From Ruania albidiflava DSM 18029 (GTDB taxonomy: Bacteria > Actinomycetota > Actinomycetes > Actinomycetales > Beutenbergiaceae): a stretch of DNA of 64,000 nucleotides. Of the stretch, positions 6,719 to 19,752 are shown one piece after another. The DNA lies in contig NZ_ATWL01000004.1 in assembly GCF_000421225.1 (NCBI RefSeq), forward strand, positions 124,001-188,000, written 5' to 3'. The position numbers were made by a program, and so were the translations under genes. The stretch's first letter is position 1, and the number at the start of each line of letters is the position of its first letter. The notes below the pieces were generated by a model. It did not search any database, was not told the DNA's origin, and was given only the letters and a program-made list of their open reading frames with translations.

Positions 6719-7288
6719 GTGGCACGTGGTGAACAGGTCGACCGGCGGATCCACGAGGCTGCGATGGCCCTGCTGCGCGCCCACGGACCCGCAGCGGTGA
6801 CCGTCGAGGCTGTCGCCGCACAGTCCGGTGTGGCCCGCACCACCATCTACCGCCGGCACAAGGACCGCGGCGAGGTGCTGGAGTCGGCGCTGAAGGAGAT
6901 GGCCGCTACGAACCCGTTCGTCCCCACTGAGGACGTCTGGGTGGACATGCGGACCGCGATCGAGATCACCATCGCCACCTTCCTGCAGAACAGGGGGGTG
7001 GGGGTGTTCCTGGGGCTAGTGCAGAGCGGCGACCCGGAGCTGGTCGAGCTCATCCGGGAGAAGCTGCTGCGGCCGCGGATGGAGCTGGGGGTGGCGCGGC
7101 TGCGCGCCGGGATCGCCACCGGTCAGGTGCGCGCGGACGCCGACGTGGACACAGTGGCCGACCTGGTGCTGGGCGCCGTGGCGGCCCGGTTCGCCCACGC
7201 GGGCACCTTCCCGCCGGAGTGGATCGACTCGGTGGTCGCCTTGATGCGTCGGTCGCTCGAGCCCGACGGCGGAGCCAGCGCGCCGTAG
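6719..7288 (+). CDS. TetR/AcrR family transcriptional regulator
   Basis: A 189-residue protein with an N-terminal TetR helix-turn-helix (VTVEAVAAQSGVARTTIYRR, about residues 27-46) and an all-helical ligand-binding C-terminal half. GTG 6719 follows GGGAGA. It is co-directional with, and 156 bp upstream of, the diiron/acyl-CoA reductase/AGPS gene block. The strong inverted repeat at 7366-7393 sits in that gap, so this is the likely local repressor. TetR proteins beside lipid genes often sense acyl-CoA or fatty acids; the ligand here is inferred only from the neighbours. Confidence 0.88.
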   Translation: MARGEQVDRRIHEAAMALLRAHGPAAVTVEAVAAQSGVARTTIYRRHKDRGEVLESALKEMAATNPFVPTEDVWVDMRTAIEITIATFLQNRGVGVFLGLVQSGDPELVELIREKLLRPRMELGVARLRAGIATGQVRADADVDTVADLVLGAVAARFAHAGTFPPEWIDSVVALMRRSLEPDGGASAP

Positions 7289-7362
7289 GTCCCTCGCCGA
7301 GCGGTTCTGCTCTGGGCGGTATTGGGTTTGGTGCACCCTGGCTGACGGCGTACCCTGGGACC

Positions 7363-7396
7363 AGCGATCGCTACAGTGCATGTAGCGTATCGATAC
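7363..7396. promoter_or_regulatory. Nested inverted repeats upstream of the lipid gene block, candidate TetR operator
   Basis: The left arm CGATCGCTACA (7366-7376) and right arm TGTAGCGTATCG (7381-7392) are reverse complements apart from one inserted base, separated by GTGC. Two perfect 10-bp palindromes overlap the ends: AGCGATCGCT (7363-7372) and GTATCGATAC (7387-7396). The site lies 49-82 bp before the ATG of the diiron gene and 75 bp after the TetR stop. Symmetry and position fit a TetR operator. Binding is inferred. Confidence 0.6.
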
Positions 7397-7444
7397 CGGC
7401 TCTGGTTGACACCACCACCAACACTCGCAGCGAGGGCGGACCGT

Positions 7445-8239
7445 ATGGCATTCGACATCGACCGGTTCGCACGAGACTCCGTGCGCGTCGGCTGGGAGGA
7501 CCTCGACCTGGAGGTGTTCCGCACCGACCCGCTGCCCCCGGAGTCGCTGCGCACGCTGCGCTACATGTGCGATGTGGAGTACCACACCGTCTGCTACCTG
7601 CGGGACATGCTGGTCACCCGGTCCCGCCGGGAGACCGAGGTGAACGCCTTCATGACGATGTGGAACCGGGAGGAGTTCTGGCACGGCGAGGCGCTCGCGC
7701 ACGTGCTCTCGCTGCACGGGATCACCGTCTCCTACGACGAGCTGAAGGCCAAGCGGGTCAAGCTCGGCTGGAAGGACCGGTTGGCACCGTTGAAGCAGTC
7801 GGTGCTGTCCAACCTGGTGGGCAAGGACTTCGTGGCCGTGCACATGATCTGGGGAGCGGTCAACGAGTGGTCCGCCTCGGCCGCCTACAAGCGGCTCGCC
7901 GTGCTCGAGGGGCACCCGGGTCTGGCGGTGCTGGTGCGCCGGATCGCCGCTCAGGAGGCTCGGCACGTCGCGTTCTACGCCACCCAGGCCCGCACCCGCC
8001 TCACCGACAACGCCAGGGCGCAGAAGCTCGCCCGGCTCGCGCTGTCCACAGCCTGGCGCCCGGTCGGTTCCGGGATCGCCTCGGACGACGAGGTTACCCA
8101 TGTGATGGGGCACCTGTTCGGCGGCGCCGCCGGACGCAAGGAGATCGACGCCATCGACCGACACATCTCCAAGCTGCCCGGGATGGACGGTCTGACGATC
8201 GTGGGCGACGCGCTCGACGCCCGCGGGATCGCCGCATGA
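7445..8239 (+). CDS. Ferritin-like diiron protein, acyl-ACP desaturase-like (complete ligand set)
   Basis: A 264-residue all-helical protein. It has Glu45 (CDVEYHT), Glu77-x-x-His80 (EEFWH), Glu141 (AVNEWSA) and Glu171-x-x-His174 (QEARH). That E / ExxH / E / ExxH pattern, with ~30-residue spacing within each helix pair, is the ligand set of soluble acyl-ACP desaturases and related diiron oxygenases. The protein is shorter than plant or mycobacterial desaturases, so it is a distant relative. It would need an electron donor, and none is visible nearby. ATG 7445 is chosen because it aligns with the start of the next gene, a paralogue; an upstream in-frame ATG at 7376 lies inside the inverted repeat. 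Substrate is inferred from context: an acyl or alkyl chain of the ether-lipid block. Confidence 0.75.
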   Translation: MAFDIDRFARDSVRVGWEDLDLEVFRTDPLPPESLRTLRYMCDVEYHTVCYLRDMLVTRSRRETEVNAFMTMWNREEFWHGEALAHVLSLHGITVSYDELKAKRVKLGWKDRLAPLKQSVLSNLVGKDFVAVHMIWGAVNEWSASAAYKRLAVLEGHPGLAVLVRRIAAQEARHVAFYATQARTRLTDNARAQKLARLALSTAWRPVGSGIASDDEVTHVMGHLFGGAAGRKEIDAIDRHISKLPGMDGLTIVGDALDARGIAA

Positions 8240-8288
8240 GCCCCCACCGAGGTGCGCCGAGGACCCCGGCGTGCCGGAGCGAGGCGCA

Positions 8289-9062
8289 GTGACCTTCGAC
8301 GTCAAGGCCTACACCCGTACGCCGATCGACCTGCGCCCGGACAACCTCGACCTGTCCGCCCTGGCAGACCTGGACGGCCCCACGTTGGCCGTCCTGGACT
8401 ATCTGTGGCAGGTCGAGCACGGTGTGCTCGACCTGATGCGGGACGTGCTGGTCACCCCCACCCACGCCGAGTCGGAGGTGACCGCCTTCCTGGTGACCTG
8501 GGGCTATGAGCAGTACTGGCTCGCCCGCTCCTTGCACGAGGTGCTCACTGCCCACGGTGGGCCGAGCGACGCAGGCCGGGACTCCGCCGTCGGTGTGGTG
8601 CTGCGTGCCTGGGACGAGCGCGCCCGCCCGATGCTGCACTCGGTGCGGACCAACCTGCTCGGTGAACAGGTGGTGGCCGGTCACCTGGCCGCAGGCTGGC
8701 TGGACACCGCCGCACTCGCGCTGTGCTACCGGCGCCTGGGCAGCCTGGTCCCAGCATGCACGGCCCTGACCGAGGCGGTGCTGCCGATGAAGGATCGGCA
8801 TCTGGACTTCTACACCGCACAGCTGCGGGAGCGGATCGGCGAGCCTGCCGCCGCCCGGCACGCCCGCCGCGCCGCCAGCTCCTGGCGCTGGCCGGGCACC
8901 CGGTACACCGGGCACGACGCAGTGCTGCCGGTGGTGGAGACCCTGCTGGCCGACCCGGCCGCACGAACCGACGTGACCACCGTGGACACCCGGCTGCAAC
9001 AGCTGCTGGACGTGGCACCGCTCACAGCTGTGCGCTCGGCACTGGGCCGATTCGTCCGCTGA
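8289..9062 (+). CDS. Degenerate paralogue of the upstream diiron protein (metal ligands mostly lost)
   Basis: A 257-residue protein alignable end to end with its neighbour (start VTFDVKAYTR against MAFDIDRFAR; VEHGV against VEYHT; WGYEQYW against WNREEFW; KDRHLDFY against EARHVAFY). Of the six diiron ligands, only the first Glu and the last His remain. Glu77 is Gln, His80 is Leu, Glu141 is Thr and Glu171 is Lys. It is therefore unlikely to bind a diiron centre itself and may be a partner or scaffold for the active copy. GTG 8289 is chosen because it aligns with the paralogue's start and has AGGCG upstream; GTG 8271 is an alternative. It lies 49 bp after the active copy. Confidence 0.72.
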   Translation: MTFDVKAYTRTPIDLRPDNLDLSALADLDGPTLAVLDYLWQVEHGVLDLMRDVLVTPTHAESEVTAFLVTWGYEQYWLARSLHEVLTAHGGPSDAGRDSAVGVVLRAWDERARPMLHSVRTNLLGEQVVAGHLAAGWLDTAALALCYRRLGSLVPACTALTEAVLPMKDRHLDFYTAQLRERIGEPAAARHARRAASSWRWPGTRYTGHDAVLPVVETLLADPAARTDVTTVDTRLQQLLDVAPLTAVRSALGRFVR

Positions 9063-9100
9063 GGCAACGATCGGCCCCGCTTCCGCGTACAGTAACCGGA

Positions 9101-11368
9101 GTGTCGGAGGATTTGAAGAACGCCCACGTCCTGGTGACGGGTGCGACCGGATTCGTCGGACAGGCTGTCGTCGAGAAGCTCCTGTCCGCGTATCCGTCGA
9201 CCCGGATCACCGTGCTGGTCCGCCCCCGCGGCGCCCTCAGCGCGCAGGCGCGAGTGGATAAGCTGCTCCGCAAGCCGGTGTTCGAGCCCTGGCGCGAACG
9301 CGTCGGGGCCGAGCAGGCCGAGGCTGAGGCGGCACAGCGGCTGACGGTGCTGGCGGGCGACCTCGAGGACGTCCCACCGTTGCCCGGGGACCTGGACGTG
9401 GTGATCCACTCCGCCTCCACCGTCTCCTTCGACCTGCCGATCGACGAGGCGTTCGCCTCGAACGTCGGCGGACCGGTGAACCTGTACCAGGCGATCGCCG
9501 CCTCCGGCTCCGACCCGCACGTCGTGCACGTGTCCACCTGCTACGTGGCTGGTCTGCGCAAGGGTCTGGCCGAGGAGCGCAGCCTGGAGCACGACGTGGA
9601 CCGCGAGGCGGAGATGGCCCGGGCGCTGGCTGCGCGCACCGGCGCCGAGTCCGCCTCCCGCCGCCCGCAGCCGCTCGGCCGGATGGTCGCCAAGGCACGC
9701 GCCCAGCACCGCCGTGCCGGTGCCCAGGCGGTGGCCCAGGCCGCCGAGCAGGCCCGCCGCGCCTGGGTGCACGACCAGCTGGTGGAGGCCGGCCGCACCC
9801 GTGCCACCTCGCTGGGGTGGCCGGACGTGTACACGTTCACCAAGGCGCTCGGCGAGCGGGTCGCCGAGGACCTCTGGGGCGCCAGCCGGCGGCTGTCTGT
9901 GGTCCGCCCGACGATCATCGAGAGCTCGTTGCAGCACCCGTTCCCGGGGTGGATCGACGGGTTCAAGGTGGCCGACCCGCTGATCGCTGCCTACGGGCGG
10001 GGCATGCTGCCGGAGTTCCCGGCGCTGGCGGACACCATCTTGGACGTGATCCCGGTGGACCACGTGGTGAACGCGATCCTCGCAGCAGCCGCGAGCCCGC
10101 CGCCGGTGGCGGAGCCGCAGTACTTCCAGGTCTCCTCCGGGTCGCGGAACCCGCTGCGGTTCGGCACGCTGCTGCGGCTGATCCGGGGCTACTTCCGCAA
10201 GCACCCGCTCACCGACGCCCAGGGTTCGTTCGTGCAGGTGCCGAACTGGACCTTCCCGAACGGTCCGGCGGTGCAGCGTTCGCTGCGCCGCCGGGAGATT
10301 GCCGTGGATACCGCGGACAAGCTGGTCGGGCGGCTGCCGGCGAACGACACCACCCGGCAGTGGATCTCCACGATCTACAAGGCCAAGCGGGACCTGGGCA
10401 CGCTGCGCAAGTTCACCGACCTGTACCAGGCCTACACCCAGACCGAGGTGGTCTTCGACGACACCAACACCCGTGCGCTGCACGAGGCGGTCGCCGACGA
10501 CCGCAAGGCCGAGCACGGATTCGACGTCACGGCGATCGACTGGGCGCACTACCTGCAGGAGGTGCACGTCCCGAAGGTCCCGGGCCTGATGCGCGAGCGC
10601 CGCTCGCGGCCCAAGCCGTCCATCGACGCCGAGAACCTGCCCGCGCGCGAGGACGTGCTTGCCGTCTTCGACCTGCACGGCACCGTGGCTGCCGCGAGCC
10701 TGATCGAGCACTACGTCTGGGTGGAGCTGGCTGCCAAGGGGGCGCTGCCCGCGCTGCGCGAGCTCGGCGGCATGGTGGCCTCCTCCGGCACCTATCTGCA
10801 GGCCGAGCGGCGGGACCGGGGAGACTTCATCCGTTCCTTCATGCGCCGCTACGCCGGGATCAGCGAGGAGGAGCTGCGGGAGGTGATCGCCACGAAGGTG
10901 ACCCCCTCGTTGCGTGCCCGGGTGCACGCTGAGGCCACCGAACGGATCGCTCGGCACCGGGCCGCCGGGCACCGCACCGTGCTGGTCACCGGCCAGATCG
11001 ACGTGTTCGTGGAACCGCTGGCGGACATGTTCGACGTGATCGTGGCCGGGGAGATGGAGAAGGACGCCCGTGGGCGCTGGACCGGGCACCTGGCCACCTC
11101 CCCGCTGGTGGACGAGGCACGTGCCGCCTGGCTGGTGCGCTACGCCCGCGAGGAGGGCGTGGACCTTGCCGCCTCCTACGCCTACGGCGACACCTACTCC
11201 GACCGGCCGTGGCTGGACGTCGTCGGTCACGCCAGCGTGGTGAACCCTGATTCCAGCCTGTACCGCTACGCCCGGGAGAAGCGCTGGCCGGTGCACTCCT
11301 GGACCACGACGGCGGAGGGTCGCCTCTCCCCGGTGGTCCGCTCGATCACAGGGCCGGCCGGGCGATGA
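9101..11368 (+). CDS. Fatty acyl-CoA reductase (SDR type) fused to a C-terminal HAD-IB domain
   Basis: A 755-residue two-domain protein. Residues ~8-500 form an extended SDR/fatty acyl reductase with the NADPH loop TGATGFVG (13-20), VIHSAS, VHVSTCYVAG and the catalytic YTFTK. A FAR-C-like helical region follows. From ~520 a HAD-IB domain begins with FDLHGT (Asp524; the usual second Asp is His526), then LVTGQ and GDTYSDRPWLD. FAR enzymes reduce acyl-CoA to a fatty alcohol, the alkyl donor that AGPS needs. The His in motif I suggests the HAD half has altered or lost phosphatase activity. GTG 9101 gives the expected N-terminus. The stop overlaps the next ATG by 4 nt, so the two are translationally coupled. 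Confidence 0.8.
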   Translation: MSEDLKNAHVLVTGATGFVGQAVVEKLLSAYPSTRITVLVRPRGALSAQARVDKLLRKPVFEPWRERVGAEQAEAEAAQRLTVLAGDLEDVPPLPGDLDVVIHSASTVSFDLPIDEAFASNVGGPVNLYQAIAASGSDPHVVHVSTCYVAGLRKGLAEERSLEHDVDREAEMARALAARTGAESASRRPQPLGRMVAKARAQHRRAGAQAVAQAAEQARRAWVHDQLVEAGRTRATSLGWPDVYTFTKALGERVAEDLWGASRRLSVVRPTIIESSLQHPFPGWIDGFKVADPLIAAYGRGMLPEFPALADTILDVIPVDHVVNAILAAAASPPPVAEPQYFQVSSGSRNPLRFGTLLRLIRGYFRKHPLTDAQGSFVQVPNWTFPNGPAVQRSLRRREIAVDTADKLVGRLPANDTTRQWISTIYKAKRDLGTLRKFTDLYQAYTQTEVVFDDTNTRALHEAVADDRKAEHGFDVTAIDWAHYLQEVHVPKVPGLMRERRSRPKPSIDAENLPAREDVLAVFDLHGTVAAASLIEHYVWVELAAKGALPALRELGGMVASSGTYLQAERRDRGDFIRSFMRRYAGISEEELREVIATKVTPSLRARVHAEATERIARHRAAGHRTVLVTGQIDVFVEPLADMFDVIVAGEMEKDARGRWTGHLATSPLVDEARAAWLVRYAREEGVDLAASYAYGDTYSDRPWLDVVGHASVVNPDSSLYRYAREKRWPVHSWTTTAEGRLSPVVRSITGPAGR

Positions 11369-12165
11369 GGGGCAGGACGCGGACCACGCCGGTGCCGATC
11401 ATCGGGACCGCGATGGTCACCGGCGGCACCTCCGGGATCGGCCTTGCCTTCGCCCGTGCGCTGGCCGCCCGCGGCTGCGACCTGGTGCTGGTCGCCCGGA
11501 ACCGACAGCGGCTGGACGAGACCGCCGAAGAGCTGCGCGCCGCGCACGGTATCGCCGTGCACACGATCGTGGCTGACCTGACCGACCGGGCCGATGCCGA
11601 CACGGTGGCGCGCCGGCTGGAGGACACCAGCGCCCCGGTGGACATCCTGGTGAACAACGCCGGGCACGGGGTGCACACACCGCTCACCGAGCAGATCGAC
11701 GTGCACGACGCCGCGATCGACCTGATGATCCGCGGTGTGCTCGTGCTCGGGGCCGCCGCCGGCCGGACGATGCAGGCCCGCGGCAACGGGCTGATCATCA
11801 ACGTCGGTTCGGTGGCCGGACTGGTGGCCATGGGCACCTACTCCGCGATCAAGTCGTGGGTGAACACCTACTCTGAGAGCCTGAGCCTGGAGCTGGAGGG
11901 CAGCGGAGTGCAGGTGATGACGTTGATCCCCGGATGGGTGCGCACCGAGTTCCACGGCCGGGCGAAGATCCGCACTTCGGCGATACCGTCGTTCCTGTGG
12001 CTGGAAGCCGACCGGCTGGTGGCCGACTGCCTCACTGATGTGGAAGCGGGGCGGACCAGGTCGGTACCATCACGACGGTTCAAGGTGATCGCCTGGTTGG
12101 CGCAACGGATGCCCCGAGCACTGGTCCGGCGAGCAACGGCGCTGATCCGGAAGGGACGCAGATGA
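11365..12165 (+). CDS. Classical short-chain dehydrogenase/reductase, candidate acyl/alkyl-DHAP reductase
   Basis: A 266-residue SDR with the cofactor loop GGTSGIG (20-26), VARNRQRL after the second strand (Arg suggests NADPH), NNAG, and catalytic Tyr159/Lys163 in TYSAIK. C-terminal helices rich in Arg and Leu (WLAQRMPRALVRR) could associate with membrane. ATG 11365 overlaps the acyl-CoA reductase stop by 4 nt. In ether-lipid synthesis an NADPH-dependent SDR reduces 1-alkyl-DHAP to 1-alkyl-glycerol-3-phosphate; context makes that the leading hypothesis. A generic ketoacyl or alcohol dehydrogenase role cannot be excluded. Confidence 0.85.
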   Translation: MRGRTRTTPVPIIGTAMVTGGTSGIGLAFARALAARGCDLVLVARNRQRLDETAEELRAAHGIAVHTIVADLTDRADADTVARRLEDTSAPVDILVNNAGHGVHTPLTEQIDVHDAAIDLMIRGVLVLGAAAGRTMQARGNGLIINVGSVAGLVAMGTYSAIKSWVNTYSESLSLELEGSGVQVMTLIPGWVRTEFHGRAKIRTSAIPSFLWLEADRLVADCLTDVEAGRTRSVPSRRFKVIAWLAQRMPRALVRRATALIRKGRR

Positions 12166-12325
12166 GGACGAGGAGCCCCCGCGGAGTCGGCGTGAGGGAC
12201 GAGCGCCGGCGGAGCGAGGCACCGCAGTGCTCAGACCACAGAGCGCTGTTGAGGACGAGGAGCCCCCGCGGAGTCGGCGTGAGGGACGAGCGCCGGCGGA
12301 GCGAGGCACCGCAGTGCTCAGACCA
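12163..12325 (+). repeat. Perfect 76-bp direct duplication (period 87 bp) between SDR and acyltransferase genes
   Basis: Positions 12163-12238 and 12250-12325 are identical over 76 bp, separated by 11 bp. The first copy begins with the stop codon of the SDR gene; the second ends at the ribosome-binding site of the acyltransferase. The unit contains CGCCGGCG and a CAGTGCTC arm. A degenerate relative may lie at 8250-8291 (shared GGAGCGAGGC...GCAGTG). The 60-residue open frame through the repeat is not convincing as a gene. Confidence 0.9.
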
Positions 12326-12336
12326 GAGGAGCACTG
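12312..12336 (+). promoter_or_regulatory. Hairpin that overlaps the ribosome-binding site of the acyltransferase gene
   Basis: CAGTGCTC (12312-12319) and GAGCACTG (12329-12336) form a perfect 8-bp stem with a 9-base loop. The GAGGAG ribosome-binding site (12326-12331) lies partly in the loop and partly in the 3' arm, and the ATG starts at 12337. Pairing would hide part of the site. The 5' arm is supplied by the second copy of the 76-bp repeat; the first copy also carries this arm. Confidence 0.5.
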
Positions 12337-13089
12337 ATGAGTGAGCGGCGCAAGACCGGCAGGTACCACTCCCGGCTGCACCGGTGGGCCAGGTACGTCG
12401 CGCAGCGGGGCATCCTCAAGACCGTGCTGAGCACCAACCTCCGGATCACTGTGGAGGGGGAGCGCAACTTGGCCGGGCTGGACGGTCCGTTCATCATGGT
12501 CGCGAACCACTCCTCGCACCTGGACGCTCCGCTCTGCCTGACCGCGCTGCCCTACCGGGTGACCAAGAACGTGGCCACCGCTGCTGGCGCGGACTACTTC
12601 TACAACGCGAAGTGGCGCAGCATGCTCACCTCGCTGTTCTTCAACACCTACCCGGTGGAACGCGGCAAGACCCGCGGCAAGTCGGCCGGACTGTCGGTCA
12701 CCCTGCTGCGGCAGGGGGTGCCGCTGCTGATCTTCCCGGAGGGCACCCGCTCGCGCACCGGCGAGATGGCTGAGTTCACCCCCGGTGCCGCGGCCCTGGC
12801 CCGGGCGCTGCGGCTCCCGCTGGTGCCGGTGGCGCTGGTCGGGGCGCACGATGCGATGCCGGTGGGCACATTCTGGCCCAAGCCCGGCCGGATGCCGGTG
12901 AAGGTGCTGATCGGCAAACCGCTACGGGTCCGGCCCGGGGAGAAGCTGCCCGAGTTCAACACCCGCGCCGAGGCGCGGGTGCGGGCGATGCACACGATGC
13001 AGACGTCCTACGTGCTCGTCCCCGAGGACAACGCTGCCCCGCAGCCGGAGCACAAGGACCTGCCGGACGCTCAGGAAGGGATCTCATGA
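12337..13089 (+). CDS. 1-acyl-glycerol-3-phosphate acyltransferase family (PlsC-like)
   Basis: A 250-residue acyltransferase with motif I NHSSHLD (His/Asp catalytic pair, HX4D), motif III FPEGTRSRTGEM and a VPVALVGAHDAM segment. It lacks the long N-terminal membrane anchor of some PlsC proteins. The family transfers an acyl group from acyl-CoA or acyl-ACP to a glycerophosphate at the membrane surface. Here it could act as a DHAP acyltransferase supplying acyl-DHAP to AGPS, or acylate the alkyl-glycerol-3-phosphate at sn-2. The start has GAGGAG upstream. The stop overlaps the AGPS ATG by 4 nt, so the two genes are translationally coupled. Confidence 0.88.
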   Translation: MSERRKTGRYHSRLHRWARYVAQRGILKTVLSTNLRITVEGERNLAGLDGPFIMVANHSSHLDAPLCLTALPYRVTKNVATAAGADYFYNAKWRSMLTSLFFNTYPVERGKTRGKSAGLSVTLLRQGVPLLIFPEGTRSRTGEMAEFTPGAAALARALRLPLVPVALVGAHDAMPVGTFWPKPGRMPVKVLIGKPLRVRPGEKLPEFNTRAEARVRAMHTMQTSYVLVPEDNAAPQPEHKDLPDAQEGIS

Positions 13090-14768
13090 CCGACGTCGTC
13101 CACCAGAAGTGGTGGGGCTGGGGAGTGGAGGGCATCGCCTTCCACCACGAGGACAAGCCAGAGTTCGCCCCGTTCGTGCGGAAGGCCATCGGACTGGACC
13201 TGCACGGCCCCGCCGGACGACCGCCGTCGTTCGAGGACCTGGAGGTGCCGGCCTCGATCCTGGACGAGGACCTCGGTGCGCGCCTGCGGGAGATCGTCGG
13301 TGACCACCACGTGTCGCTCGGGGACATGAACCGTGTGGTGCACACCTACGGCAAAGGGCTGCGTGACCTGGTGCGAGTGCGCGCCGGGGACCTGCCCCGG
13401 GTACCGGACGTGGTGGTCTACCCCGCGAACTCCGACGAGGTGCAGGCCGTGGTGGACGCCGTGGTCGAGGCCGACGGTGTGCTCATCCCGTTCGGTGGCG
13501 GGTCGAACATCTCTGGGTCACTGACCCCGCCGGCCGGTGAGCAGCGCGTGGTCGTCTCCCTGGACATGGGCCGGATGAACCGCGTGCTGCAGATCGACGC
13601 CGACGCCGGTCTGGCGCTCATCCAGGCTGGTGGTCTGGGCCCGGACCTGGAGGAGCAGCTGAATGCCGAGGGCTGGACTATGGGGCACCAGCCGGACTCG
13701 TTCAAGCACTCCACGCTCGGCGGCTGGATCGCCACCCGGTCCTCCGGTATGCAGTCGGACAAGTATGGCGACATCGCCGACATCACCCGCGGGTTCACCG
13801 TGGTGCTGCCCGGGAAGGTGGTCGAGCTGCGGCCGCTGCCGAGCACCTCCACCGGCCCCAGCGTGCGGGAGATGATCATCGGCAGCGAGGGCCGGCTCGG
13901 CGTGATCACCCAGGCGTGGGTGCACGTGCACCGGCTGCCGGAGAACCGCGAGGTGATCGCCTACCTGTTCCCGAACTGGGCAGCCGGGCTGGCGGCGATG
14001 CAGGAGGTGTCCACCTCGGACGCCTCCCCGAGCATCACCCGCGTGTCGGACGCCGCCGAGACGGCGTTCTCCTTGGCCACCCGGAAAGCCTCGAACAGCC
14101 TGTCCTCGAAGGTGGGGGAGGGGCTGTTCGAGCTGCTCCGCCGCCGCGGCTGGGACCTGGACAAGGTCGCCATCTCCTACATCGGCTACGAGGGCGGTTC
14201 AGCGAAGGTCCGGGCCGACAAGTCGGTGGTCGGCAAGATCATCGGCAAGCACGGCGGCATCAAGCTCGGCAAGGGCCCGGGCTCGATGTACGACCAGAAG
14301 AAGTTCGACACCCCCTACCTGCGCGACTTCCTCCTGGACCGTGGCGCGCTGGGTGACGTGTCCGAGACGGCAGCGCCCTGGTCCCGCCTCGGTGAGGTGT
14401 ACACCTCCACGGTGCGGGCGGCTCGCGCGGCGTACGCCGAGCTGGGCGTGCAGGGCTTCATCATGTGCCACCTGTCGCACTCCTACCACTCCGGTGCGTG
14501 CCTGTACTTCACCTTCGCGTTCCCGCCGAAGGAGGGTGTGGACCAGCTGGAGCAGTACGACGTGGTGAAGTCGGCGATCCAGCAGTCGTTCGTGGACCAT
14601 GGCGGCACGCTGAGCCACCACCACGGAGTGGGCAACGACCACTCGCCGTGGCTGGAGGAGGACATCTCCTCCGCCGGCACCGACCTGATGGTGGGGCTGC
14701 TGTCCTCGGCGGACCCGGGGCGCAACCTCAATCCGGGCACGCTGATCCCCAGCCACCGCGAGTGGTGA
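13086..14768 (+). CDS. Alkyl-dihydroxyacetonephosphate synthase (AGPS-like FAD enzyme)
   Basis: A 560-residue FAD-binding protein of the VAO/PCMH fold. The N-terminus has QKWWGWGVEG (the K-W-GWG start of AGPS). The FAD-binding half has IPFGGGSNISG, TMGHQPDSFKHSTLGGWIA, RSSGM and IGSEGRLGVITQ. The catalytic half has PYLRD (the Arg of AGPS), ETAAPWSRL, SHSYHSGACLYFTFAF and the triple-His GGTLSHHHGVG. These track eukaryotic AGPS closely, including the His triplet and Tyr region that bind substrate, and differ from lactate/glycolate oxidases. The enzyme swaps the acyl of acyl-DHAP for a fatty alcohol, forming the ether bond. The coupled PlsC and nearby acyl-CoA reductase support that role. Confidence 0.87.
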   Translation: MTDVVHQKWWGWGVEGIAFHHEDKPEFAPFVRKAIGLDLHGPAGRPPSFEDLEVPASILDEDLGARLREIVGDHHVSLGDMNRVVHTYGKGLRDLVRVRAGDLPRVPDVVVYPANSDEVQAVVDAVVEADGVLIPFGGGSNISGSLTPPAGEQRVVVSLDMGRMNRVLQIDADAGLALIQAGGLGPDLEEQLNAEGWTMGHQPDSFKHSTLGGWIATRSSGMQSDKYGDIADITRGFTVVLPGKVVELRPLPSTSTGPSVREMIIGSEGRLGVITQAWVHVHRLPENREVIAYLFPNWAAGLAAMQEVSTSDASPSITRVSDAAETAFSLATRKASNSLSSKVGEGLFELLRRRGWDLDKVAISYIGYEGGSAKVRADKSVVGKIIGKHGGIKLGKGPGSMYDQKKFDTPYLRDFLLDRGALGDVSETAAPWSRLGEVYTSTVRAARAAYAELGVQGFIMCHLSHSYHSGACLYFTFAFPPKEGVDQLEQYDVVKSAIQQSFVDHGGTLSHHHGVGNDHSPWLEEDISSAGTDLMVGLLSSADPGRNLNPGTLIPSHREW

Positions 14769-16182: not shown

Positions 16183-16584
16183 GTGACCGGCATCGTGTAC
16201 TTCTCCTCCGTCTCGGAGAACACGCGCCGTTTCGTGGAGCGGCTGGACCTGCCGGCCGAGCGCATCCCGCTGCGACCCAAGGACGGGCACCTGCGGGTGG
16301 ACCACCCGTATGTGCTGTTCACCCCCACCTACGGGGGCGGGAACGGCCAGGGGGCCGTCCCCAAGCAGGTGATCAAGTTCCTCAACGACGTCCACAACCG
16401 GTCCCTGATCAAGGGTGTGGTGGCGGCGGGGAACACCAACTTCGGTGCGGCCTACTGCCTGGCCGGGCGGATCATCGCCCGCAAGTGCAAGGTGCCGCAC
16501 CTGTACGACTTCGAGTTACTAGGAACCGCTGAGGACGTCATGCACGTCCGCCAAGGATTGGGGCACACGTGGCTGCAACACTGA
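16183..16584 (+). CDS. nrdI: NrdI flavodoxin, activator of the class Ib metal cofactor
   Basis: A 133-residue flavodoxin-like protein starting [17 protein letters not shown] (phosphate-binding loop SSVSEN for FMN), with FTPTYGGG and [17 protein letters not shown]. NrdI supplies the oxidant that assembles the dimanganese-tyrosyl radical in NrdF. GTG 16183 aligns with known NrdI starts. The 3' end overlaps nrdE by 16 nt, so translation of the two is likely coupled. Confidence 0.95.
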
Positions 16585-18722
16585 CCGAGGGTGGCATCGA
16601 GACCAGCGCGCCGGAGATGGACTACCACGCGCTGAACGCCATGCTGAACCTGTACGGGCCGAACGGGGAGATCCAGTTCGACAAGGACCGAGAGGCCGCC
16701 CGGCAGTACTTCCTGCAGCATGTGAACCAGAACACGGTCTTCTTCCACAACCTCGCCGAGAAGCTCGACTACCTGGTGGAGAACGGCTACTACGAGACCG
16801 AGGTGCTGGACAAGTACTCCCGGGAGTTCGTCCACCAGCTCTTCGACCACGCCTATGCGAAGAAGTTCCGGTTCCAGACCTTCCTCGGCGCGTTCAAGTA
16901 CTACACCTCGTACACGCTGAAGACGTTCGACGGCAAGCGGTACCTGGAGCGCTTCGAGGACCGGGTCTGCATGGTCGCGCTCACCCTGGCCGACGGGGAC
17001 GAGCAGTTCGCTCTGGACATGGTCGACGAGATCATCTCCGGCCGGTTCCAGCCGGCCACGCCGACGTTCCTGAACTCGGGCAAGAAGCAGCGCGGGGAGC
17101 CGGTCTCCTGCTTCCTGCTGCGCATCGAGGACAACATGGAGTCGATCTCCCGGGCGATCAACTCCTCGCTGCAGCTGTCCAAGCGCGGCGGTGGCGTGGC
17201 GCTGCTGCTGAGCAACATCCGCGAGTACGGGGCGCCGATCAAGCGGATCGAGAACCAGTCGTCGGGGGTGATCCCGGTGATGAAGCTGCTCGAGGACTCC
17301 TTCTCCTACGCCAATCAGCTCGGTGCCCGCCAGGGCGCCGGCGCGGTGTACCTGCATGCCCACCACCCGGACATCCTGCGGTTCCTGGACACCAAGCGGG
17401 AGAACGCCGACGAGAAGATCCGGATCAAGACCCTGTCCCTGGGCGTGGTGATCCCGGACATCACCTTCGAGCTGGCGAAGAAGAACGAGGACATGTACCT
17501 GTTCTCCCCCTACGACGTGGAGCGCGTCTACGGGGTGCCGTTCGCCGAGATCAACGTCTCGGAGAAGTACCGCGAGCTGGTGGACGACGGCCGGATCAAG
17601 AAGAAGAAGATCAAGGCCCGCGAGTTCTTCCAGATCCTCGCGGAGGTGCAGTTCGAGTCCGGCTACCCGTACATCATGTTCGAGGACACGGTGAACCGGG
17701 CGAACCCGATCGAGGGCAAGATCACCCACTCCAACCTGTGCTCGGAGATCCTGCAGGTCTCCACCGCATCCACCTACAACGACGACCTGTCGTATGCGCA
17801 CGTGGGTAAGGACATCTCCTGCAACCTGGGCTCGATGAACATCGCGGCCACGATGGACTCCCCGGACTTCGGCAAGAGCATCGGTGCTGCGATCCGGTCC
17901 CTGACGGCGGTCTCGGACCAGACGCACATCTACTCGGTGCCTTCCATCGAGCAGGGCAACAACGACTCCCACGCCATCGGCCTGGGGCAGATGAACCTGC
18001 ACGGCTACCTCGCCCGGGAGCGGATCTTCTACGGCTCCGAAGAGGGCATCGACTTCACCAACATGTACTTCTACACGGTGCTGTTCCACGCCCTGAGCGA
18101 GTCGAACAAGATCGCCATCGAGCGCGGCAAGGCGTTCAAGGGCTTCGCGGAGTCCAGCTACGCCAGCGGGGAGTACTTCGACAAGTACACCGACCAGACC
18201 TGGGAACCGGCCACCGACCGGGTCCGGCAGCTGTTCGCCGACGCCGGGGTGCACATCCCCACCCAGGAAGACTGGCGCGAGCTGAAGGCCTCGGTACAGG
18301 CGCACGGCATCTACAACCAGAACCTGCAGGCTGTCCCGCCGACGGGGTCGATCTCCTACATCAACAACTCCACCTCCTCGATCCACCCTGTGCCGGCGAA
18401 GATCGAGATCCGCAAGGAAGGCAAGATCGGCCGCGTCTACTACCCGGCGCCGTACCTGAGCAACGACAACATCGACTACTTCCAGGACGCCTACGAGATC
18501 GGCTACGAGAAGATCATCGACACCTACGCGGCGGCCACCCAGCACGTGGACCAGGGGCTGAGCCTCACCCTGTTCTTCAAGGACACGGTGACCACCCGCG
18601 AGGTGAACAAGGCGCAGATCTACGCCTGGCGCAAGGGCATCAAGACCCTGTACTACATCCGGCTCCGTCAGCTTGCCCTGGAAGGCACTGAGGTGGAGGG
18701 CTGTGTCAGCTGCATGTTGTGA
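16569..18722 (+). CDS. nrdE: Class Ib ribonucleoside-diphosphate reductase, large subunit
   Basis: A 717-residue catalytic subunit. It has the redox cysteine in PVSCFLLR, the active-site SNLCSEI (Asn, thiyl Cys, Glu), the second redox Cys in [10 protein letters not shown], and the C-terminal electron relay CVSCML. The N-terminus lacks the ATP-cone of class Ia, consistent with NrdE. It reduces ribonucleoside diphosphates to the deoxy forms with NrdF and NrdH. GTG 16569 overlaps nrdI by 16 nt and starts VAATLTEGG. It is full length with no frame disruption. Confidence 0.97.
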
Positions 18723-18768
18723 CGCCGCCTCCCTGCTGTACCCACCCCATCTGTATCTGAAGGACTAG

Positions 18769-19752
<984 letters not shown>

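Follow-up and report, generated by a model that had tools for sequence, protein, structure and literature searches.

A candidate aerobic ether-lipid gene cluster in Actinobacteria with a predicted soluble, desaturase-like diiron protein pair

In animals and myxobacteria, the vinyl ether of plasmalogens is formed by a membrane desaturase, CarF (TMEM189 or PEDS1; Pfam family PF10520, plasmanylethanolamine desaturase). The route through alkyl-dihydroxyacetone-phosphate (alkyl-DHAP) synthase, AGPS, is likewise known from animals and myxobacteria, and the closest described gene set is the MXAN_1676-1674 operon of Myxococcus xanthus, which encodes AGPS, a FAR1-GNPAT-like fusion and an NAD-dependent epimerase/dehydratase and stands alongside CarF and the elb operon (PMC9131029). 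Here we describe a seven-gene cluster at positions 6719 to 14768 of a 64,000-nucleotide stretch of the Ruania albidiflava DSM 18029 genome (contig NZ_ATWL01000004.1, positions 124,001 to 188,000), the whole of which is called the window below. An initial annotation of this DNA had proposed an ether-lipid, possibly plasmalogen-type, gene cluster in which a diiron protein takes the place of CarF/PEDS1. We give a probability of about 0.6 to the reading that these genes encode a regulated, aerobic AGPS-route ether-lipid pathway ending in plasmalogens, in which one protein, here called DI1, is a new type of desaturase. The seven genes lie on a single strand, as annotated, and are laid out as follows.

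6719-7288, + strand: TetR-family regulator (TetR_N and TetR_C_11 in Pfam), likely a local repressor
7369-7387, no strand: inverted repeat CGCTACA-GTGCA-TGTAGCG, 76 nt upstream of DI1, probable TetR operator
7445-8239, + strand: DI1, predicted soluble, diiron desaturase-like protein with ligands E45, E77xxH80, E141 and E171xxH174
8289-9062, + strand: DI2, paralogue of DI1 with a destroyed metal site, GTG start, probable non-catalytic partner
9101-11368, + strand: FAR-HAD, fatty acyl-CoA reductase (FAR) fused to a HAD-IB domain, GTG start, NAD_binding_4 plus HAD
11365-12165, + strand: classical short-chain dehydrogenase/reductase (SDR), adh_short, YSAIK motif, probable alkyl(acyl)-DHAP reductase
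12337-13089, + strand: PlsC-type acyltransferase, PF01553, motifs NHSSHLD and FPEGTRSR, probable DHAP or alkyl-glycerol 3-phosphate acyltransferase
13086-14768, + strand: AGPS, alkyl-DHAP synthase by phmmer against the PDB, FAD_binding_4/FAD-oxidase_C

The 4-nt ATGA overlaps between FAR-HAD and SDR (11365-11368) and between PlsC and AGPS (13086-13089) were confirmed, and Pfam hidden Markov models upheld the family calls for TetR, the FAR+HAD fusion, SDR and PlsC. In the proposed pathway, FAR-HAD would convert acyl-CoA with iso and anteiso chains to fatty alcohol, PlsC most likely supplies acyl-DHAP to AGPS, its translationally coupled partner, and AGPS would exchange the acyl chain for the fatty alcohol. 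The SDR would then reduce alkyl-DHAP to alkyl-glycerol 3-phosphate, with sn-2 acylation and the head-group steps carried out by PlsC or by housekeeping enzymes. Finally, DI1, as a soluble, O2-dependent enzyme and probably together with non-catalytic DI2, would dehydrogenate the alkyl chain at C1'-C2' to yield the vinyl ether, and TetR would gate expression of the cluster through CGCTACA-N5-TGTAGCG. We infer each catalytic step, as well as the DI1-DI2 complex and the position of the desaturation.

Compared by gene content, the cluster holds the same kit as M. xanthus, namely AGPS, FAR, a GNPAT-like acyltransferase and an NAD-dependent reductase; M. xanthus also has a HAD protein, ElbB, in its elb operon and produces ether lipids and plasmalogens aerobically (PMC9131029). 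The two differ in that FAR is fused to the acyltransferase there and to HAD here, that the reductase here is a classical SDR, that no member of the CarF family was detected here, and that the cluster has, in addition, a soluble diiron pair and a TetR with its operator. DI1 would resemble CarF/PEDS1 in forming the vinyl ether with O2; however, it is predicted to be a soluble, ferritin-like carboxylate-bridged diiron protein unrelated to the membrane enzyme of animals and myxobacteria. It shares a predicted fold and the ligand pattern E, EExxH, E, ExxH with acyl-acyl carrier protein (acyl-ACP) desaturases (PF03405; castor, Mycobacterium tuberculosis DesA2), yet it is 12 to 18% identical to them in structural alignments, has a ligand-less paralogue as partner and occupies another genome context. 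The anaerobic PlsA/PlsR plasmalogen synthase is alike in product class and different in its enzymes. What is new, against the AGPS pathway of animals and myxobacteria (PMC9131029), is an aerobic actinobacterial cluster with a soluble desaturase-like pair and CarF undetected; no description of such a cluster was found in the openly licensed literature searched, which is weak evidence of absence. If the vinyl ether is indeed formed by DI1/DI2, plasmalogen desaturation arose independently on a different protein fold, and a reaction so far known from a membrane protein alone would become accessible in a soluble, tractable enzyme. A third origin of vinyl-ether formation, in aerobic Actinobacteria, where a heteromeric DI1+DI2 desaturase, soluble and of the acyl-ACP-desaturase fold, would perform the C1'-C2' step that PlsA/PlsR bypasses, is a proposal with hardly better than even chances.

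The case for DI1 as an enzyme begins with its metal site. The ligands E45, E77xxH80, E141 and E171xxH174 were invariant in 112/112 homologues, save that H174 was present in 111 (one H174Q). By sequence, DI1 resembles acyl-ACP desaturases and R2lox weakly: it scored 16.4 bits against PF03405 (FA_desaturase_2), below the cut-off of 22.7, and falls outside that family by sequence, and a sequence search of the PDB gave weak matches, with DesA2 at 0.0028 and a designed helix bundle as the best. An AF2 model (pLDDT 90.5, 48-row alignment) matched castor stearoyl-ACP desaturase best in structural comparison (VIA; Z 18.7, 240 aligned, root mean square deviation 3.4), followed by DesA2 (Z 16.6) and R2lox (Z ~16), a ranking with a modest margin, as helical bundles score high by default in such comparisons. 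DI1 is thus a plausible acyl-ACP-desaturase-like four-helix diiron protein, predicted to be soluble, and the conservation of its ligands is the stronger point, outweighing the fold match. Two diiron-like proteins had been annotated; the description suits DI1, whereas DI2 is a paralogue from which the metal ligands have been lost (E77 to Q, H80 to L, E141 to T and E171 to K in the window), leaving just one of the pair plausible as a diiron enzyme. Across 99 DI2 sequences, position 77 is mostly K/Q/R, position 80 mostly I/L and position 171 mostly K/R. DI2 has the same predicted fold as DI1, gave no Pfam or NCBIfam match, and is kept in nearly all genomes where DI1 accompanies the cluster. It is probably a ligand-less, non-catalytic partner, and a DI1-DI2 heteromer may form. 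Neither protein is a PF10520 member in a Pfam scan with E up to 1.

Methanolysis of vinyl ethers is expected to yield dimethyl acetals (DMAs). Reports of DMAs in Subtercola, an aerobic actinobacterium, go back to 2000 (Mannisto et al., as cited in PMC5945732 and PMC7472656). Subtercola vilae DB165T contains 17% iso-16:0 DMA plus lesser DMAs, and four Subtercola species, among them S. vilae, S. boreus and S. lobariae, total 21 to 29% DMA, totals that we summed from Table 2 of the same source (PMC5945732). The full cluster is present in genomes named S. vilae DB165 (locus L186), S. boreus (L188, L190 and L213, three strains, none the type strain) and S. lobariae (L183). The literature searched held no genes assigned to the Subtercola DMAs, for which the cluster provides a concrete, testable gene set. 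PlsA-type DUF2229, which we take to be a marker of PlsA, occurred in 0/10 genomes of Ruania, Occultella and Subtercola, with controls positive in 6/14. No match to PF10520 was found in Subtercola, nor did anything exceed the cut-off in 248 genomes of the order, in searches without a positive control over that cut-off. One PF10520 match, in genome G236, was dismissed as chance (21 bits, under the cut-off, 39 positions with internal stops). Organisms with abundant DMAs therefore probably lack the known vinyl-ether makers, which makes the desaturase-fold protein of the cluster the obvious candidate. The suggestion that the lipids are of the plasmalogen type gains from the DMAs of three cluster-bearing Subtercola species and from the lack of PF10520 and DUF2229 matches, and it is held back by the indirectness of that evidence; plasmalogens are likely in organisms that carry both the cluster and DI1.

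An alternative is that the cluster makes saturated alkyl ethers only, with DI1/DI2 desaturating or hydroxylating elsewhere on the acyl or alkyl chain, or acting on the aldehyde or alcohol of FAR. The fold of DI1 is nearest to that of acyl-ACP desaturases, enzymes that act mid-chain; its fold matches also include an aldehyde-deformylating oxidase, and the DI genes directly flank FAR-HAD in many genomes. The abundant Subtercola DMAs, however, need a vinyl ether or an aldehyde source, and the Subtercola chains are almost all saturated, with mere traces of unsaturated acids (PMC5945732), so that a desaturase there would be without an obvious fatty-acid product. We consider this alternative unlikely.

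The co-occurrence search across sequenced genomes that had been suggested with the annotation shows the families to be linked. AGPS of this type occurs in 53/248 genomes of the order, never without FAR-HAD. DI1 occurs in 34/248, with FAR-HAD in 31/34 (Fisher 6e-19) and with AGPS in 29/34 (2e-18), p-values that are inflated by shared ancestry; the fairer genus-level counts are 12/12 with FAR-HAD (p 8e-10) and 10/12 with AGPS (p 5e-8). The seven-gene order is fixed in Ruania, Occultella and one relative, whose contig ends within FAR-HAD. Elsewhere the predominant arrangement has AGPS-PlsC-SDR facing DI2-FARHAD-DI1, as in Microbacteriaceae, Phytoactinopolyspora, Kocuria and Streptomyces, so that linkage is seen in at least two gene orders across several families. 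FAR-HAD is near DI1 in 67 of 80 named loci and the whole set in about 64, several of the contigs stopping inside the cluster. With conservation and synteny across three genera of the family and rearranged versions in other families, the set is not a chance assembly. AGPS is found without DI1 in 24 genomes, so the core seems not to need DI1, apparently an optional tailoring enzyme.

A shared operator points the same way. The perfect inverted repeat CGCTACA-N5-TGTAGCG, a single copy in the 64-kb window, lies 50 to 90 nt upstream of DI1 in 14/14 sequences examined, including that of Tamaricihabitans (L202), where a TetR homologue (49%) stands divergent beside DI1/DI2 and TetR, DI1 and DI2 are all of the set that is present. 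About 24 clusters with the divergent arrangement carry a variant, CGCTACG-N5-CGTAGCG, immediately before DI2, in the stretch that separates it from the divergent SDR. With the operator at the DI1 promoter and its variant at the SDR/DI2 promoter, one operator type ties the diiron and ether genes together. We infer that TetR binds the CGCTACA-N5-TGTAGCG site.

Several observations weigh against a plasmalogen pathway with DI1 as its desaturase. DMAs can also derive from free aldehydes. The PF10520 searches, in the order and in Subtercola, had no positive control, as no control genome scored over the cut-off. Some cluster-bearing Herbiconiux, and some Subtercola in another study, were reported by routine profiling to have monounsaturated acids, and no useful literature was found on Ruania lipids. 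Agromyces and Tamaricihabitans have DI1/DI2 with intact DI1 ligands and lack FAR-HAD and this AGPS, and two genomes of family f5 and Haloactinopolyspora have DI1/DI2 and FAR-HAD without this AGPS; the active site retained in the Agromyces-type DI1s implies that the protein still has some function there. In Kineococcus, FAR-HAD and AGPS are present, unlinked, in K. radiotolerans (G068), DI1 was not found in 11 species of the genus, and K. rubinsiae is reported to contain 2.9% anteiso-15:0 DMA (PMC7472656). This leaves either a different enzyme in Kineococcus, an aldehyde origin of the small amount of DMA, a K. rubinsiae unlike the species examined, or a DI1 that does not form the vinyl ether.

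A second alternative is that plasmalogens are made by another enzyme, and that DI1/DI2, though often found linked to the cluster, is an accessory system serving a purpose of its own. The AGPS-less pairs of Agromyces and others, the Kineococcus DMA, and the TetR, operator and DI pair standing alone in Tamaricihabitans all suit it. It has to contend with the near confinement of DI1 to FAR-HAD genomes in the order sample, with the operator shared by the DI and ether genes, and with the phylogeny, in which the Agromyces-type DI1s form one clade (support 100/99), compatible with a single later loss of the partners. We regard it as improbable. The proposal that the diiron protein replaces CarF/PEDS1 is supported by context, predicted fold, ligands and the shared operator and remains unproven, with the Agromyces and Kineococcus exceptions to be explained; a role of DI1/DI2 as the desaturase that forms the vinyl ether is a good hypothesis, with odds somewhat on its side.

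The ether-lipid core itself is on firmer ground. In phmmer searches of the PDB, AGPS of the window matched Dictyostelium AGPS (1.9e-110, 373 bits) and mammalian AGPS (2.5e-91, 310 bits), compared with about 1e-20 for D-lactate/glycolate oxidases (77 bits for D-lactate dehydrogenase). The motifs RD (89/89 homologues), CLYF (87/89) and SHHH (89/89), which we take from general knowledge of AGPS structures to mark the catalytic region (RD, the CLYF tyrosine and HHH), are conserved. By these comparisons the protein is a true alkyl-DHAP-synthase homologue, predicted to exchange acyl chain for alcohol. An identity as a D-lactate/glycolate-type oxidase, with FAR and PlsC serving wax or storage lipid and no ether lipid made, would fit the best NCBIfam model (glcD, scoring under its cut-off) and the occurrence of FAR-HAD without AGPS, near other PlsC genes, and was dropped as very improbable in view of the PDB scores, the motifs and the finding that AGPS occurs in FAR-HAD genomes alone. 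The "clear AGPS" of the initial annotation therefore stands, and its ether-lipid pathway is strongly supported by a conserved module of true AGPS, FAR, SDR and PlsC; ether-lipid synthesis by the AGPS route is highly probable. The window genome also encodes another AGPS-like protein, which is divergent (32% identity; L171 2161-3750, G000:C40) and whose relatives in other genomes show no correlation with DI1.

FAR-HAD is a member of its family by Pfam (NAD_binding_4 1.1e-47, HAD 6e-32), by NCBIfam (TIGR01490, 107 bits, cut-off 98) and by the conserved reductase motifs TGxxGFxG and YxxxK. Its HAD motif, DLHGT, lies at window positions 10670-10684 and retains the nucleophile Asp. Among homologues, Glu or His mostly replaces the second Asp of DxD (DLEGT, DLHGT), though some keep Asp, and this replacement suggests that the phosphatase activity of the HAD domain is altered or lost. 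A supposed in-frame TGA readthrough in FAR-HAD of family f12 was discarded, the TGA being the natural C-terminal stop. The SDR matched adh_short (2.5e-40), its nearest NCBIfam model being mycolate reductase, under its cut-off; PlsC matched Acyltransferase (PF01553, 1.1e-23), and its NHSSHLD and FPEGTRSR motifs are conserved.

The cluster suggests, further, that routine MIDI fatty-acid profiling hides plasmalogens. One study documents the calling of anteiso-15:0 DMA as "C14:0 2-OH" (PMC7472656), and this component is on record from several Microbacteriaceae. A MIDI profile of S. vilae lists 15.6% 2OH-C14:0 (PMC9287328) where the species description found DMAs (PMC5945732), which agrees with the misassignment seen in Kineococcus. 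Plasmalogens may lie behind many of the "C14:0 2-OH" records in Microbacteriaceae.

A few minor features of the loci were also seen. The Subtercola cluster has two genes inserted between FAR-HAD and DI1, one LarA-like (nickel-dependent lactate racemase-type) and one for a further acyltransferase of the PlsC type (S. lobariae L183, 7596-9131 and 9131-9859; both also in L186, by eye from translations), and in S. lobariae DI1 is followed by a diacylglycerol-kinase-like gene (L183, 10844-11941, likewise by eye). In the window, the 171-bp gap between SDR and PlsC contains a tandem duplication, an 85-bp element repeated at a spacing of 87 with 96% identity, which fills the gap (12157-12328), and an element of similar look lies between DI1 and DI2 (8240-8288). 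Downstream, at 16183-19752, are class Ib ribonucleotide reductase genes for NrdI, NrdE and NrdF (by eye), unrelated to the cluster.

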